Shown: piece after piece, positions 40,972 through 47,317 of the stretch
Layout: the number at the start of each line of letters is the position of its first letter
Position numbering within the stretch: the stretch's first letter is position 1
Assembly (NCBI RefSeq): GCF_025359345.1
Contig: NZ_JANYGQ010000036.1
Coordinates: 62,001 to 126,000 of the forward strand
Source: Mucilaginibacter sp.
GTDB lineage: Bacteria > Bacteroidota > Bacteroidia > Sphingobacteriales > Sphingobacteriaceae
DNA length: 64,000 nucleotides
Direction of reading: 5' to 3'
Position numbers and translations under genes: made by a program
Notes under the pieces: model-generated
Seen by the model: only the letters and a program-made list of their open reading frames with translations
Told to the model about the DNA's origin: nothing
Database searches by the model: none

Positions 40972-41883
40972 TCAACCAAGTGTTTCGCATATCAGCGTAT
41001 CTAAACTTCTCACGTCAACAAAATCATCCCCGTTCAGGGCTCCGGCATTTACATGTGAATCCGTACAAATAAGTTTTTTAATGACACCGCAGTTTTTTAA
41101 TTTTTGCAACCCATCGTTTACAAATAAGCCGTGGGTTGTTATTACAAAAATATCGGATGCTCCGGCGTCTTTGTAAGTTTTAGCCGCATTGATTATGCTG
41201 CCGCCCGAGCGTATCATGTCATCATAAATTATTACTGTTTTACCGGCTACATCTGCATTTATCGCGCTTACTTCAGTCTGGTCGCCTTTTAAGCGGCGTT
41301 TTAAGATAAACGCCGCATTTACACCCAGTTCATTGGCTAATGATTCAACCCATTTGGCCCTGCCGGCATCGGTACTGGCCATCACAAAATTATCGCCACC
41401 ATATTCAATAGCGGCTTGTATAACAATGCTTTTGCAATAAATATGAACGGGATAAAGTCCGTTTTCAAAGTAGTAAGGAATACCTTCTGAATGAATATCG
41501 AAAAGGTAAACGCGGTTGCCCCTGTTGCTGCGCGGTATGGCCGACAACAGCATAGCCCGGGCCTTCGCTGTAACAATTTCGCCCGGTAAAACGGCCCTTT
41601 CCATTGTGGAGTAGCCGAAATATGGAATAACGAGTGACAATGAACCCGCGCCGTAGCTAACCAATGATGATGCCAGGTCGAACAGCTCAAGCGTCGACTC
41701 ATCGTTCACAGTTCCTCCGATAATCACCACATCCCGGTTGTCAACATTGGTAAGGATACGCTGGTAGCGTTCGCCATCAGTAAAATTATCCGTCTCGAGT
41801 AGGCCTTGCTCAAACTGCCCGCAGGCCATAACTTTTTCCGCAAGGTATTTATATTGCTTTATGTTGAAGAGTATCTTTTTCAT
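40972..41883 (-). CDS. prs: Ribose-phosphate pyrophosphokinase-like (Prs)
   Basis: 303 aa. PRPP-binding loop VIIYDDMIRSGGSI (about 220) and the ATP/ribose region near RAVLPGEIVTAKARA. Makes PRPP from ribose 5-phosphate and ATP. It starts 8 nt after the phosphoribosyltransferase gene, so it supplies the substrate for that enzyme on the same transcript. Sequence is shorter than or diverged from housekeeping Prs (about 310 aa), consistent with a dedicated paralogue. Confidence 0.92.
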   Translation of the reverse strand: MKKILFNIKQYKYLAEKVMACGQFEQGLLETDNFTDGERYQRILTNVDNRDVVIIGGTVNDESTLELFDLASSLVSYGAGSLSLVIPYFGYSTMERAVLPGEIVTAKARAMLLSAIPRSNRGNRVYLFDIHSEGIPYYFENGLYPVHIYCKSIVIQAAIEYGGDNFVMASTDAGRAKWVESLANELGVNAAFILKRRLKGDQTEVSAINADVAGKTVIIYDDMIRSGGSIINAAKTYKDAGASDIFVITTHGLFVNDGLQKLKNCGVIKKLICTDSHVNAGALNGDDFVDVRSLDTLICETLG

Positions 41884-41891
41884 ACAGAATG

Positions 41892-43307
41892 TTACCTGTT
41901 TAAATTGGCCTTCACCTCTTCAAACGTTAATTGTTTTACTATTTCGCCATTTTCAAAAACTGTATGCAGTTCATCCGCAAAGCTTTCATTGCCGGCTTCT
42001 GTAACTGTCCTAAAATCACCGTTAATTTTAACCAGCTTTAACCGGCCGCTTTTGCTCTTTTTAAAACTGGCGGTAATATCGCCATTTGCGTTCATTTCGG
42101 TTGGGATTTTTGATACATTTACCTCTATGCCGTTTATTACGGCGCTGCTGCATTTTAACGCGAAACGCTGCGTATCCCTGTCGACTTTTTGTAATAGCGC
42201 CCCGCCCATCCCCAGTACCAGGTTTTCGGCGCTGATGCTGGCTTGTTTAAGTGCGGCGTAAATTATTTTTATGGATTCATAATTTACACCATCGCCTTGT
42301 ATTACCCTTAATTGGGGCGGCAAGACTTTATAACCTTTTGAGTTTACTGTATAACCGAATTTATTAAAAAGTATTTCGAATATTTCCAGGAGCGTCATCA
42401 CCGGGTCGCCGCTATCCGGGCGGATAACAAGTGTGCCGTCCCTTTTTAGTATCTCTTCTTTAAGGTCTTCACCCCAATACTCTTCACACGCCCTGAAGAT
42501 ATTGTAACTGTCGCTCACGCAGGCTATAATGCCGGTTGGGAAAGTCTTTAATACATGTTTAAATACTTCCAACTCACCCTCCTTACCCAATAGGGTGCAA
42601 ATGCTATGTTCAGTGGCGGGTATACTCAGGCCGTATACTTTTTGCGCATCATAATAATTGATTGCCATTGTCGATCCTGCCAAATTATCGCTGCCGTTAA
42701 AATTTAACAAGTGTGCTGCACCGCCAAGCTTGGCGCTTTCAACACTGCTAACCCCTCGAAAACCGAAATCGTTAAGCACAAAATCGATCCCGGCTTCGGC
42801 GCCATCGGTGGCGGTTTCTGTATAATAGCCGGTAACTATTTTTTTTACCTGGTTGCTTAATGTTGATACGGTGCACGGGTACCAAACCTGCATCAGCAGG
42901 GTTTCTAAGAAATTAGTAAGCCAATAGCATTCCGGATCGGTGTTTTCTATGGTCATTAACACGTTGCCAACGGGCACCCGGGTGCCTTCAGCTACTGCCT
43001 TAATTTTAACCGGCAGCCTGCCCTTGTACTTATCCAAAATGTATTGGAATTTACTTTTATCAAAAACATCGCTGCGACCAAAAACCTGTAATAAGAAACC
43101 TTCAGCCTCATCGAGGTCGGCTTGGGTAAAAGCTTCACCGGCCAGGTATTCTTTCAAAAAATATTGCAGGCCAAAAAATACGGTTTCGTCAAACATACCG
43201 CCCCGGCTTTCAAGGTAGCTGTATATTCCCGTGGTGCCGGGGTAGTATAGTTTATGATGTGCATATTTATAAGCATCGGCCAGCAGGACCAAATTTTCGC
43301 GTTTCAT
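41892..43307 (-). CDS. nadV: Nicotinamide phosphoribosyltransferase (NadV/NAMPT)
   Basis: About 471 aa from the ATG at 43307; the longer frame reads into a non-homologous leader. Converts nicotinamide and PRPP to NMN in NAD salvage. Conserved blocks: DAYKYAHHKLYYPGT, FLETLLMQVWYP, DFGFRGVSSVESAKLGG, SDSYNIFRACEEYWG, VIRPDSGDP (PRPP site) and QGDGVNYESI. Co-transcribed with the Prs-like gene downstream. Immediately upstream lies a truncated Nudix regulator (43312-43443). Confidence 0.95.
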   Translation of the reverse strand: MKRENLVLLADAYKYAHHKLYYPGTTGIYSYLESRGGMFDETVFFGLQYFLKEYLAGEAFTQADLDEAEGFLLQVFGRSDVFDKSKFQYILDKYKGRLPVKIKAVAEGTRVPVGNVLMTIENTDPECYWLTNFLETLLMQVWYPCTVSTLSNQVKKIVTGYYTETATDGAEAGIDFVLNDFGFRGVSSVESAKLGGAAHLLNFNGSDNLAGSTMAINYYDAQKVYGLSIPATEHSICTLLGKEGELEVFKHVLKTFPTGIIACVSDSYNIFRACEEYWGEDLKEEILKRDGTLVIRPDSGDPVMTLLEIFEILFNKFGYTVNSKGYKVLPPQLRVIQGDGVNYESIKIIYAALKQASISAENLVLGMGGALLQKVDRDTQRFALKCSSAVINGIEVNVSKIPTEMNANGDITASFKKSKSGRLKLVKINGDFRTVTEAGNESFADELHTVFENGEIVKQLTFEEVKANLNR

Positions 43308-43311
43308 AATT

Positions 43312-43443
43312 TTATTCAAGTGCCCAACTATTTTTAAAGGGATCGATATTTCGTTTAAAAAGTAACACCGACAGTCCTTCCTTCGAAGTGTATCCAAATA
43401 CAACAGCATCGACGGCTACTTTGATATTTTGAGAAACAGGCAT
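43312..43443 (-). pseudogene. nrtR: Remnant of NrtR-type Nudix regulator, N-terminus only
   Basis: 43 codons: begins MPVSQNIKVAVDAVVFGYTS and ends KRNIDPFKNSWALE followed by stop. The order DAVVFGY ... GLSVLLFKRNIDPFKNSWAL is the start of the NrtR/Nudix-like regulator family, whose next residues should be PGGF and then the Nudix box and winged helix. Here the frame ends 4 nt before the NAMPT ATG, so everything after the WAL motif is deleted. Intact NrtR genes are often next to NAD salvage genes, which they repress. Too short for the usual ORF filters. It could be translated as a leader peptide, but pseudogene is more likely. Confidence 0.75.
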
Positions 43444-43477
43444 ATGCACAAAGGTATTAAATGGCAGTGATTTCACA

Positions 43478-43518
43478 CTTATTGGAAATGCACAATAAGC
43501 GCCATCATATCCAATAAG
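43478..43518. promoter_or_regulatory. CTTATTG/CAATAAG array before the NAD salvage operon
   Basis: CTTATTG at 43478-43484, CAATAAG at 43493-43499 (together a 7+7 palindrome with an 8-nt spacer) and another CAATAAG at 43512-43518. It lies just upstream of the Nudix remnant and the NAMPT-Prs operon on the minus strand, and of the DUF805 frame on the plus strand. Candidate operator, possibly that of the lost NrtR. Confidence 0.35.
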
Positions 43519-43554
43519 ATACTATATTAGCATCTCCGAATCAAAACACCCTTA

Positions 43555-43663
43555 ATGCCTTTAAAACAAAAACTGCCTGTAAGCTACCTGCTATTCACCA
43601 TTAACGGCAGGCTTTCTAGGAGCGCCTACTGGCTGGCATCGATATTTTACTGGTGCACATTTT
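43555..43663 (+). pseudogene. N-terminal half of DUF805 domain, out of frame with the FAD oxidase
   Basis: The frame from the ATG at 43555 reads MPLKQKLPVSYLLFTINGRL and SRSAYWLASIFYWCTF, the start and first TM of a DUF805 domain. The second half of that domain (FWIVIATSIKRLHDSGRSGYW) continues in the next frame from 43664. Removing one T from the T4 run 43660-43663 joins them. I therefore read 43555-45313 as one frameshifted gene. The frame itself runs on to 43761, but only its first part is meaningful. Confidence 0.7.
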
Positions 43664-45313
43664 ATGTATTTGTACAACCTGCTGCAGTTTACTATCGGGC
43701 CGGGGGCAACATTTGTTTTATATCCACTGCTATTCTGGATAGTCATCGCCACTTCAATTAAACGCCTGCACGATTCGGGGCGCTCCGGGTATTGGCTGTT
43801 GGCTGTGCTGGTGCCGGTATTCGGGCCTTTGCTGCTCATTTGCCTGCTCGGTTTTAAAAAAGGTAGTTATACCAATAACTTTTATGGCACTGTGCCTGGA
43901 ACGGCGGCGGATTACCTGAAAAACGACGATGGCAAGGAAATCCCGCATTTAAAAACAGATGAGCGGATTATTGACGATGTAACCAAGCTTAACCCGGTTT
44001 TAGTTTCAAAAGTACACAGGCCGCAAAGCGTTGAGGAGGTTTGCGAAATAGTTAAAACCACCCCTGGCCCTATATCTGTGGGCGGCGGGCGTTTCAGCAT
44101 GGGCGGGCAAACTGCAAGTCCTCAAAGCACGCACATCGATATGCGGAAAATGAACCGGGTGCTTGAGTTTGACAAAACCGCGAAAACCATAACTGTACAA
44201 ACCGGTATCCGCTGGTGTGATATTCAACAATATGTTGACGAACAAAACCTGAGCGTTAAAACCATGCAAACCTACGCCAACTTTACCGTTGGCGGTGCGT
44301 TAAGTGTAAATGCGCACGGGCGTTATATGGGTTTAGGCCCGGTTATTTTATCTGTGTTATGGATTGATGTGGTTTTAGCGGATGGCACTTTAGTACATGC
44401 AAGCCCTACTGAAAATAAAGAAATATTTTATGGTGCCATTGGCGGCTACAACGGCATCGGCATTATTGTGCAGGCCGGGCTGCAATTGGCAGACAATTTG
44501 GCCGTTAAACGCGAGCACGAAAAAATGACCGTAAGCGACTACAAGGATTACTTCTTTATCAACATCCGCCAAAACCCCAAAGCGGTTTTTCACAATGGAG
44601 ATATTTATCCGCCCAAATATAAACGGCTGCGCTCGGTAACGTGGGTCGAGACAAATGAAAAGCCTACGGTTAAAACCCGGTTAATGCCGTTAAAGGAGTC
44701 GTACCCGCTGGAGCGTTATTTTCTATGGTCGTTTACCGAAACACCGCTTGGTAAATGGCGGCGTGAGTTTTTGATTGACCCGTTATTGTTTCGAAGCAAA
44801 AGGATACACTGGCGAAATTATGAGGCCGGTTATGATGTTGCAGAACTGGAGCCGCGCTCGCGTACCGACAGTACGTATGTGCTATTGGAATACTTTGTGC
44901 CGGTTAATAATTTTGAGGAATTTGAAAAAGCAATGGCCGAAATATTTATCCGGCATAATGTAAACGTGCTCAATGTTTCTATCAGGCATGCCAAAGCCGA
45001 CCCGGGATCGTACTTAGCCTGGGCGCGGGAAGAGGTCTTTGCTTTCGTAGTTTATTATAAACAAAGAACAGACGCGGCCTCGAAAGGAGCGGTTGCCGTT
45101 TGGACGCGCGAGTTGGCCGATGCGGTAACTGCTGTAAATGGTGCGTACTATTTGCCTTACCAGGTACATCCAACTACCGAACAGTTTCATAAAGCGTACC
45201 CCAACGCGCATAAACTCTTTGAATTAAAAGCAAAGCTGGACCCGGATTATAAATTCCGGAATATACTTTGGGATACCTATTACAAACCATTAAAACCAAC
45301 CAACAATGAGTAA
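43664..45313 (+). CDS. DUF805-FAD-dependent oxidase (VAO/PCMH family)
   Basis: 549 aa as annotated. Residues 1-75 are the C-terminal DUF805 part with membrane helices and RLHDSGRSGYW; residues about 100-245 are an FAD-binding (PCMH) domain with VGGGRFSMGGQ and GGALSVNAHGRYMG; the rest is the substrate domain of a sugar-lactone-oxidase-like enzyme (AREEVFAFVVYYKQR). A membrane-anchored flavin oxidase of unknown substrate, similar to aldonolactone oxidases. A true start upstream of 43555 is probable because half of the DUF805 lies out of frame. First gene of an operon: overlaps the next by 8 nt. Confidence 0.85.
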   Translation: MYLYNLLQFTIGPGATFVLYPLLFWIVIATSIKRLHDSGRSGYWLLAVLVPVFGPLLLICLLGFKKGSYTNNFYGTVPGTAADYLKNDDGKEIPHLKTDERIIDDVTKLNPVLVSKVHRPQSVEEVCEIVKTTPGPISVGGGRFSMGGQTASPQSTHIDMRKMNRVLEFDKTAKTITVQTGIRWCDIQQYVDEQNLSVKTMQTYANFTVGGALSVNAHGRYMGLGPVILSVLWIDVVLADGTLVHASPTENKEIFYGAIGGYNGIGIIVQAGLQLADNLAVKREHEKMTVSDYKDYFFINIRQNPKAVFHNGDIYPPKYKRLRSVTWVETNEKPTVKTRLMPLKESYPLERYFLWSFTETPLGKWRREFLIDPLLFRSKRIHWRNYEAGYDVAELEPRSRTDSTYVLLEYFVPVNNFEEFEKAMAEIFIRHNVNVLNVSIRHAKADPGSYLAWAREEVFAFVVYYKQRTDAASKGAVAVWTRELADAVTAVNGAYYLPYQVHPTTEQFHKAYPNAHKLFELKAKLDPDYKFRNILWDTYYKPLKPTNNE

Positions 45314-46157
45314 TGCATCAGCATTTAAAGCGGTTTTTAACAACACCAGGTGGAGCGACGATTTTTACCGCTTTTTGCAGGTGGTTTTTCACTTATACCC
45401 TGAAGATAAATTTCACCAGCTAATAAAAGAGGAAACAGCGGCTCATGCAACAGATGAAGAAATTTACACATCGGTGCAAAAAAAACTACCGGGTATAAAA
45501 CCGTTTTTTTCGGAACTTACTTATGCTTTGCCGGCGCTAAAAAAGCAAAAAAAGGAAATCGCGGGGCAGACGCTTTTGCTTTTGGGCGATAAAAAAGAAA
45601 TAAACGGGTATGTAGAGATCGGTTCTACCGGGCGGTATATTAGCAAACTGCGCAAATTGATAAAGGTAACTGAGCCTGTTTATTTATTGAATGATATCGC
45701 GCCGACTAATTCACCGGCCGATATTATGGAACGCGGGCAGTTGGCAAAACTAGGTACATTTATCCATTTGGATTACAGTCCCATTAACGAACAAATTGCG
45801 AACAGCAGCATTGATGTGGTTACCTGCAATATTGGACTGCACCATTGCCCCGTTGCTAAGCTTGACGGCTTTGTAAAATCAATTCACCGCATACTGCGGC
45901 CTGGTGGCTCATTTATCATCCGCGACCACGATGTAAAAACGCCGGAGATGGCCACATTTGTATCGTTGGTACATACTGTATTTAATGCCGGCTTAAACGA
46001 AACGCTTGAGTTCGAGAAAAAGGATTTTAAAAACTTTAAACCTGCCGACGAGTGGGCGGCAATTATAACCAAAGCAGGGTTTAAAGATACTGGTGCGCGG
46101 ATATTGCAGGATAACGATCCCTCAGACAATACATTAATGCTTTTTATCAAAATATGA
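45306..46157 (+). CDS. Class I SAM-dependent methyltransferase
   Basis: 283 aa. SAM-binding region with GYVEIGSTGRYI in the motif I position, followed by SSIDVVTCNIGLHHCP and LRPGGSFIIRDHD, of the ubiE-like class I fold. The motif I glycine pattern (EIGSTGR) is slightly divergent. Overlaps the FAD oxidase by 8 nt and the next gene by 4 nt (ATGA), so the three are co-translated. Substrate unknown; a lipid or small-molecule target is possible, from the membrane-linked neighbours. Confidence 0.88.
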   Translation: MSNASAFKAVFNNTRWSDDFYRFLQVVFHLYPEDKFHQLIKEETAAHATDEEIYTSVQKKLPGIKPFFSELTYALPALKKQKKEIAGQTLLLLGDKKEINGYVEIGSTGRYISKLRKLIKVTEPVYLLNDIAPTNSPADIMERGQLAKLGTFIHLDYSPINEQIANSSIDVVTCNIGLHHCPVAKLDGFVKSIHRILRPGGSFIIRDHDVKTPEMATFVSLVHTVFNAGLNETLEFEKKDFKNFKPADEWAAIITKAGFKDTGARILQDNDPSDNTLMLFIKI

Positions 46158-47251
46158 GGCGGTTGCGAATTTTAACCTGTGTTGCACTGGCACTGGCTTT
46201 TATAACTTTTGTTATAAAAAACCGGCAGCCGGCAACTATTGTGCCCGGTAGGAGCCTGCTGGTTGATAAAGCCTGGCTTAAAACCAACCTGCACCCTTTA
46301 ACCCCACAAAAGAATGTACGCCCGCCCGACCAAACGTTTTTAACCTACCCTGAATGGTTCCTGGTATTTAGCCCGGCCGAGCAGGCCGATTATTTTAAAA
46401 CGCATACCACCACCACGTTCCCTTATATGAAACATATAGACCAGATGTGGAAGGGCTATGACGTGGTTTACGACCAGCTAAAGGGCAACTATAAATTTAA
46501 CACCGGATACCATGTAATGATATTGATTATTGCCGGCAGCACCACGGTTGAATACAGCATAAAATCGTTATATGAAACGGTGGTTGGGCGCGTTACTGAC
46601 CCGCCGGGCGGCCAGTCAGTGACCGATGAGGACCGGTTTAATGCCGGTTATATGAGCAGCTATGTTAAGTTTATTGAAGATACACCATGGTACGAATATG
46701 ATTTTAACAGCCAGCTAAAATCGTTATGGACGAACACATCGTTTTTTGGTCCGCATTTTTTTCGGAAGATGGAACGCAAATATTATCTCACTACCGAGTT
46801 GATGGTTAAAAGCGGCTATGGTTGGTTGATAGGTTTAGGAACAAAATCGGCGTATGAAACAGCTTTGCTCAACACATCCGTAATAACCGATAAACTGCCT
46901 GCTGATCTCGCGAACTTTCCGGAAATTAAAAACATTAAGAAACTGCCGGATGGAACTATTTTGATGGACTTGCCCCGGTATGCCCGATTTAGCCCTGCAG
47001 TAAATAAACTGGCCCAAAGCGGCATCAGCTTCAAAGAAATTGCGGGTAATAATAATGCCATAATGCTTACTGTGCTAACAACTGCACAATTGGCAAACAC
47101 AGCCGATTTTAAGATATTGTTTACGCAGCCGATACAAACCAAAAAGGGCCTAAGCCGCATTGCCCTGGTTACAACCGTGGGAGGGCTAAGCGGCACGGTG
47201 CTTTCGCTCTATAAAAGCAAGGTAAAAATTGAACACATTTATGATTATTGA
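46154..47251 (+). CDS. Membrane-anchored protein of unknown function
   Basis: 365 aa, not recognised. One N-terminal transmembrane helix (residues 8-20), then a soluble region with TYPEWFLVFSP, DQMWKGYDVVYDQL, YSIKSLYETVVG and a C-terminal hydrophobic patch (LVTTVGGLSGTVLSLY). No catalytic signature known to me. It is the last gene of the FAD oxidase-methyltransferase operon, overlapping the methyltransferase by 4 nt, so it is probably a functional partner in the same pathway. Confidence 0.8.
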   Translation: MRRLRILTCVALALAFITFVIKNRQPATIVPGRSLLVDKAWLKTNLHPLTPQKNVRPPDQTFLTYPEWFLVFSPAEQADYFKTHTTTTFPYMKHIDQMWKGYDVVYDQLKGNYKFNTGYHVMILIIAGSTTVEYSIKSLYETVVGRVTDPPGGQSVTDEDRFNAGYMSSYVKFIEDTPWYEYDFNSQLKSLWTNTSFFGPHFFRKMERKYYLTTELMVKSGYGWLIGLGTKSAYETALLNTSVITDKLPADLANFPEIKNIKKLPDGTILMDLPRYARFSPAVNKLAQSGISFKEIAGNNNAIMLTVLTTAQLANTADFKILFTQPIQTKKGLSRIALVTTVGGLSGTVLSLYKSKVKIEHIYDY

Positions 47252-47287
47252 ATTATTGAAGGATCAGCAAGATATTCTTATACGTTG

Positions 47288-47317
47288 TATTTTCATTGCC
47301 AAAAACAAATGAAAATA
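47288..47317. promoter_or_regulatory. Inverted repeat upstream of the sugar dehydrogenase gene
   Basis: TATTTTCATT (47288-47297) and AATGAAAATA (47308-47317), perfect 10+10, loop 10 nt, 35 nt before the start codon. AT-rich; may be an operator or a weak terminator of the preceding operon. Confidence 0.3.

Follow-up and report, generated by a model that had tools for sequence, protein, structure and literature searches.

A short open reading frame with the look of a truncated NAD salvage regulator NrtR lies directly before the gene for nicotinamide phosphoribosyltransferase (NAMPT) in a Mucilaginibacter genome, and raises the question of what became of the regulator and of the pathway that it would have controlled. 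The frame belongs to a stretch of 64,000 nucleotides (the window) within a 6.9-Mb assembly (G000; 38 contigs, 99.38% complete) from a soil bacterium, and stands in an operon for vitamin B3 recycling. The NrtR family and the NAD salvage operons under its regulation were reportedly described by Rodionov in 2008.

The first-pass annotation had read the frame as the first 43 residues of an NrtR-type Nudix protein, closed by a stop 4 nt before NAMPT. The frame (Table 1) was confirmed, and so was its kinship by DNA homology, as 144 nt (window 43319-43462) aligned at 95.8% identity with the 5' end of the intact nrtR in Mucilaginibacter flavidus RT5R15 (G016), the nearest relative, whose NAMPT is 97% identical. 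An intact NrtR orthologue matched the 43 residues at 88% (E=3.5e-17). The remnant is homologous to the nrtR that heads the same operon in relatives, and has the same placing relative to the promoter. A profile search empty of Nudix similarity had been named as a result that would speak against the assignment, and this outcome nearly came about: Pfam returned zero matches at E<=1, and the sole NCBIfam match was NF050029 (NtrR repressor; E=0.032, residues 9-42). Profile searches are, however, too weak to decide on 43 residues, and we regard the identity of the remnant as settled by DNA homology. The annotation was also right about what is missing, since the intact G016 protein carries a Nudix domain with its Nudix box (PF00293, residues 9-134) and a winged-helix DNA-binding domain (PF21906, NrtR_WHD, residues 150-211), and the remnant, which stops 5' of the box, carries neither.

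Table 1. Features of the locus in the window (G000) and promoter-keeping scars at Mucilaginibacter NAMPT loci.
Feature	Window position	Strand	nrtR start to NAMPT (nt)	Remarks
TAnnTTTG (-7) promoter box	43449..43456	-		TACCTTTG; 5 nt from remnant ATG
nrtR remnant frame	43443-43312	-		ATG, 43 codons, TAA, then AATT; NAMPT ATG at 43307
NrtR codons 1-42	43318..43443	-		5' of Nudix box; DNA 95.8% and protein 88% matches
Last codon GAA and stop TAA	43312..43317	-		aligned by eye with nadM last codon and stop
NAMPT (NadV), nicotinamide phosphoribosyltransferase	41892..43307	-		471 aa; PF18127 and PF04095
prs, ribose-phosphate diphosphokinase	40972..41883	-		303 aa; TIGR01251, 190 bits vs cut-off 113
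Scar, G000			136	43 codons
Scar, G034			165	53 codons; NrtR start joined in frame to NadM tail
Scar, G078			103	30 codons
Scar, G056			262	34 codons
Scar, G002			198	32 codons
Scar, G054			40	13 NrtR codons, out of frame into NAMPT
Scar, G003			121	promoter kept, degenerate nrtR start

A complete nrtR operon, as the annotation had expected for related genomes, does exist in M. flavidus, but its order is nrtR, nadM, NAMPT, prs, and the loss of nadM (NMN adenylyltransferase/Nudix) from the window had been overlooked. Relative to the NAMPT ATG, nrtR spans -1659 to -976 and nadM -898 to -8 in G016. The G016 NadM has a NUDIX domain at its C-terminus by profile, matches the bifunctional NMN adenylyltransferase/Nudix models below cut-off, and matches the solved NMN adenylyltransferase 2qjt at 3e-9. 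Between the nrtR start and NAMPT lie 136 nt in the window vs 1659 in G016; about 1.5 kb is missing, and NrtR codon 42 runs on directly into the tail of nadM in the same frame. Aligned by eye, the 3' side of the junction reads GAA TAA AATT ATG in the window and AAG TAA AACT ATG in G016, with a gap of 4 nt to the NAMPT ATG in both, and the junction itself falls in or adjoins an ACT(T) common to both sides. The comparison shows a deletion of ~1.5 kb in an autoregulated nrtR-nadM-NAMPT-prs operon: nrtR kept its promoter and its first 42 codons, nadM only its final codon and stop, and the two coding pieces now form one reading frame that closes 4 nt ahead of NAMPT. We place high confidence in this deletion history, as read from the alignments. 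Of the 43 residues assigned to NrtR, 42 stand, whereas the final Glu codon and the stop are the end of nadM; on this comparison the remnant is more than an NrtR cut short, namely an in-frame nrtR'-'nadM fusion. The explanation that we favour as a whole, and hold to be probable, joins a promoter-keeping deletion scar with a leaderless mRNA, a loss of ADP-ribose gating, an exit of NMN via PncC and NadD, and a passive stub peptide.

The species of the window is represented by one assembly, which leaves some room for an assembly or sequencing artefact. The scar nevertheless sits well away from either end of a contig of 468,769 bases, the assembly contains no nadM at all, and six other assemblies carry scars that are comparable but different; an artefact seems to us highly improbable. 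Searches of G000 for the lost genes were empty: nadM was found nowhere at E<=0.001 or in a second search at 1e-20, and no nrtR orthologue was found elsewhere at E<=1e-65, which also answers the annotation's question about a second full copy. A second nrtR or nadM in this genome was rejected on these searches. Of the 11 NrtR-like matches in G000, one is the remnant and two are short fragments of paralogues (45-48% identity); the others reach at most 43%, and the best-scoring paralogues have counterparts in G016, where the operon is intact. Four matches to PF01467 comprised one NadD and three proteins read on inspection as CoaD, RfaE-like and RibF. Because no nrtR orthologue was found elsewhere and the remaining paralogues are distant, the best of them paired in G016, the loss of NrtR repression that the annotation had proposed is likely.

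Across the genus, NAMPT was present in 58 of 149 genomes. Fifty-five loci were kept; G033 and G051, whose NAMPT is ~41% identical, and G097, whose NAMPT is cut off by a contig end, were set aside. Intact nadM was found at 43 of the 55 (44 genomes matched, G122 with residues 199-297 only), and nadM was never seen without NAMPT, all 44 nadM genomes being among the 58. The twelve loci without intact nadM were those of G000, G002, G003, G034, G054, G056, G078, G079, G116, G120, G121 and G122. Promoter-keeping scars were recognized at seven of the 55 loci (Table 1), those of G054 and G003 by eye rather than by tblastn, with junctions that differ and fall at about NrtR codons 13-42. In a NAMPT tree of 55 rows (without G097, G028 and G067, with G033 and G051), G000 paired with intact G016 (100/100), G034 grouped with intact G066, G124 and G030 (100/99) with G078 adjoining that group (96/83), G056 fell with intact G042 and G048 (92/100), G002 with a group of ten (96/91), and G054 with G003 (100/98). 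Since the scars are mostly nested among intact sisters and their junctions differ, the tree suggests about six separate deletion events, with G054 and G003 counted as one. The label count on the tree gave four changes for the scars, not beyond shuffles, in a count made only against the rows of other groups that left most rows uncounted; the clustering of deletion endpoints (3.9e-5) used a post hoc cut and assumed single-step uniform endpoints. Among the matches listed in a literature search, none concerned NrtR or NadM loss in Mucilaginibacter.

Several single loci showed other arrangements. A nadM piece in G121 was rejected as an in-frame deletion on a recount that revealed stops and a frame change. 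In G120 (L055), just upstream of NAMPT, no stop separates the first nadM codons from NAMPT, with which they are in frame; they may extend NAMPT by 14 residues, and nrtR is intact. In G028 (L098) nrtR, nadM and prs are still present next to a NAMPT that is broken up over three frames, and G038 has an nrtR orthologue (73%; G038:C2:249900-250577) in a genome with no NAMPT or nadM match.

The losses of the two genes go together. Absence of nrtR was recorded at nine of the 12 nadM-lacking loci (it is kept in G116, G120 and G121), and its presence at 42 of the 43 nadM-intact loci, the 43rd (G069) being cut by a contig end with the last 50 residues seen. The association is strong (Fisher p=4.1e-8, 9/3 vs 0/42), in a sample whose loci share ancestry and in which one deletion can take both genes. 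In the sister genomes G125 and G126, nrtR lies far from nadM-NAMPT (positions 1,823,040 and 4,345,097 in G125), and in G140 it is on another contig; as nrtR was kept in these three genomes though distant, they count against pure linkage.

The seven scars also have their promoter in common. A TAnnTTTG box precedes the nrtR start by 3-5 nt in 47 of 50 starts, by exactly 4 nt in 38, where 0.09 of 50 would be expected from shuffled upstream sequence, and such a box was present in 1 of 38 mechanical window frames of at least 200 aa. Of the remaining starts among the 50 examined, G095 had no box, and those of G033 and G051 received a distance of 13 nt because the start had been set too far in, an ATG being 4 nt from the box by eye. 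The scars keep the box 4-5 nt from the start in 7/7 cases (measured to GTG in G003). In Flavobacterium johnsoniae transcription starts 4-5 nt past this box, according to the available portion of the study (PMC6847099). Because the box adjoins the nrtR start codon, the operon message is probably leaderless, with transcription from the ATG or within 1 nt of it. This would be an unusual and conserved trait: the same portion of the F. johnsoniae study gives leaders of >10 nt for 87% of predicted transcripts with a probable promoter, and the accessible parts of two further reports put leaderless messages at 5.5% in F. psychrophilum (PMC9723704) and 5' UTRs of <10 nt at about 3.7% in Bacteroides thetaiotaomicron (PMC7366714). 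With a leaderless promoter, the NAMPT message would therefore begin with an NrtR stub after any deletion that spares the promoter.

Such a stub could instead be a working leaderless leader, with its translation coupled to that of NAMPT and kept by selection for NAMPT translation. The frames of G000, G034 and G078 would suit this role, being in frame with the nadM stop and ending 3-10 nt before NAMPT, as would the synonymous nature of 5 of the 7 differences between G000 and G016 over the 42 codons. Three in-frame cases in seven are, however, near the one-in-three expectation from chance, the frames of G056, G002 and G003 end 157, 99 and 106 nt upstream, that of G054 overlaps NAMPT out of frame, and scar frames range from 4 to 53 codons. 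We consider a working leader unlikely; since neither length nor sequence is kept between lineages, the stub peptide is probably passive.

The suggestion that operators might remain in the window did not hold up. Resemblance to G016 ends upstream of about -19, and a dyad scan did not separate the loci, nrtR-containing loci having a mean score of 4.26 of 6 (n=42) and scars scoring 4-5 of 6. A TGC-N4-6-GCA palindrome was present in only eight nrtR-containing loci and two scars, and no operator is claimed. Given the different upstream sequence, some other cause may have altered the strength of the promoter. A block of ~3.8 kb (FAD oxidase, methyltransferase and an unknown gene; window about 43463-47297) separates the promoter from a GSDH-type gene, and G016 has no such block. 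The FAD oxidase is also found upstream of nrtR in G075 and G098; the DUF805-FAD oxidase gene of the window (43555-45313, + strand) has a frameshift near 43.66 kb, where the G075 and G098 homologues are open.

Downstream of the remnant, NAMPT and prs both remain, as had been noted at first. The window NAMPT, with NAMPT_N and NAPRTase domains, scored 577 bits against a cut-off of 405 with NF006629 (a model titled nicotinate phosphoribosyltransferase); among solved structures it is closest to vertebrate-type NAMPT (439-453 bits), other NAMPT-family chains scoring 227-257 bits, and by these matches it is a canonical NAMPT (NadV). The PDB matches of prs are ribose-phosphate pyrophosphokinases. With dN/dS between scarred lineages and relatives at 0.02-0.10 (several dS values being saturated), NAMPT is under purifying selection and still in use in the scarred lineages. 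The G000/G016 pair gave 0.101 for NAMPT, where most pairs fell at 0.02-0.06, and 0.031 for prs, and a slight relaxation of constraint on NAMPT is possible there.

This last value could also be taken as a sign of plain decay, in which the cassette is leaving these genomes, nrtR and nadM first and NAMPT-prs to follow. The patchy presence of NAMPT, the split NAMPT of G028, and several loci without prs in the fetched stretch (among the seven scarred loci, those of G054 and G003) would fit such a course. On the other side, NAMPT is intact at all 12 nadM-lacking canonical loci, their dN/dS values are mostly like those of intact pairs, and the promoter is joined to NAMPT in every one of the seven scars, which random decay need not bring about. 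Decay thus strikes us as a doubtful account, and our best reading is of recurrent deletions that bring NAMPT directly under the autoregulated promoter and abolish both the control by ADP-ribose and the making of NAD by NadM.

After such a deletion, NAMPT and prs would no longer be gated by ADP-ribose via NrtR, and NadM would no longer convert NMN to NAD or cleave ADP-ribose. We have moderate confidence in the de-repression of NAMPT. As the deletion also took nadM, the operon by its gene content now ends at NMN, which would be deamidated by PncC to NaMN and enter the NadD-NadE route, or be used by NadD directly. A CinA/PncC gene was found in 145 of 149 genomes (117/117 good ones), G000 included, and the G000 NadD matched TIGR00482 at 180 bits vs a cut-off of 112. 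PncB (PF17767) was detected in 9 of 149 genomes and 1 of 12 nadM-lacking ones (G122), with a model that matches only 5 of 14 control genomes and may miss diverged PncB; NadA was present in 13 of 13 genomes tested. Since CinA/PncC is near universal, PncB rarely found and NadD present, exit through PncC and NadD, or through NadD alone, is probably the route of NMN, again with moderate confidence. Complementarity of the scars with CinA was uninformative, its near-universal presence not discriminating among loci. The scarcity of PncB across the genus may make NAMPT the main entry of nicotinamide where it is present. In the available text on Shewanella oneidensis (PMC3855486), salvage combines NadV with an active PncC and lacks PncA and PncB. 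The window's genome resembles this partly deamidating system in having NAMPT and a CinA/PncC gene and no PncB found by PF17767, but here the pathway is a predicted one and would have arisen through loss of NadM.

A sensor-controlled pathway may in this way have been made always-on repeatedly, with a different end point. More tentatively, the deletions could represent a repeated switch, in which NrtR becomes droppable only once NadM is gone because ungated NAMPT together with NadM is harmful. Promoter-capturing deletions would then take both ADP-ribose-recognising proteins at once, and a gated NAD cycle without deamidation would give way to a constitutive cycle in which NMN is drained via PncC; the leaderless promoter would ease such deletions, and the NAMPT message would begin with the NrtR stub. 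We think this extension possible rather than probable. Altogether, about six events form a natural deletion set that removes an NAD-sensing repressor and an NMN adenylyltransferase together and keeps NAMPT, and the sister species make the purpose of NrtR gating, and the use of NAMPT-made NMN without a dedicated NMN adenylyltransferase, directly testable.

Compared with known NrtR-regulated operons, the intact relatives are alike in that an ADP-ribose-type Nudix regulator with a winged helix (PF00293, PF21906) heads an operon of NadM and NAMPT, whereas the window has neither regulator nor NadM and its promoter is fused to NAMPT-prs. The intact operon also shares the enzyme pair of NARP2-type NadV-NadM salvage in phages, but the operon of the window, without NadM or NadR beside NAMPT, cannot complete NAD itself. 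With NARP1 (Adps-Namat) the window shares Prs-family and NAMPT-family genes side by side. The selectivity clamp of Namat has the motif GSX-Phi-X-Phi-X-Phi-TRD (PMC12774641), while at this GSX..TRD signature the window NAMPT reads GMGGALLQKVDRD and is nearer human-type NAMPT; this motif and the scores against solved structures led us to reject a Namat/Adps reading of NAMPT-prs. The speculative link to phage defence in the first-pass annotation is consequently not supported, NAMPT being canonical with no Namat signature and a NARP2-like route being incomplete without NadM. NAMPT or NAMPT-prs loci of bacteria cannot be taken for complete systems of NAD reconstitution.

Outside Mucilaginibacter, the nrtR-nadM-NAMPT order is kept in 11 fetched loci, from Desertivirga, eight Chitinophaga, a Kapaibacterium and an Ignavibacteria. 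Phage salvage pairs NadV with NadM in the accessible portion of PMC9503650, and on viral contigs a NadM-like match was found within about 1.1 kb upstream at 14 of 24 NAMPT loci. One 416-kb viral contig (L206) encodes NrtR-like (44%), NadM-like (33%) and NAMPT (47%) proteins, all oriented alike, and this phage salvage cassette may come with a regulator of its own.
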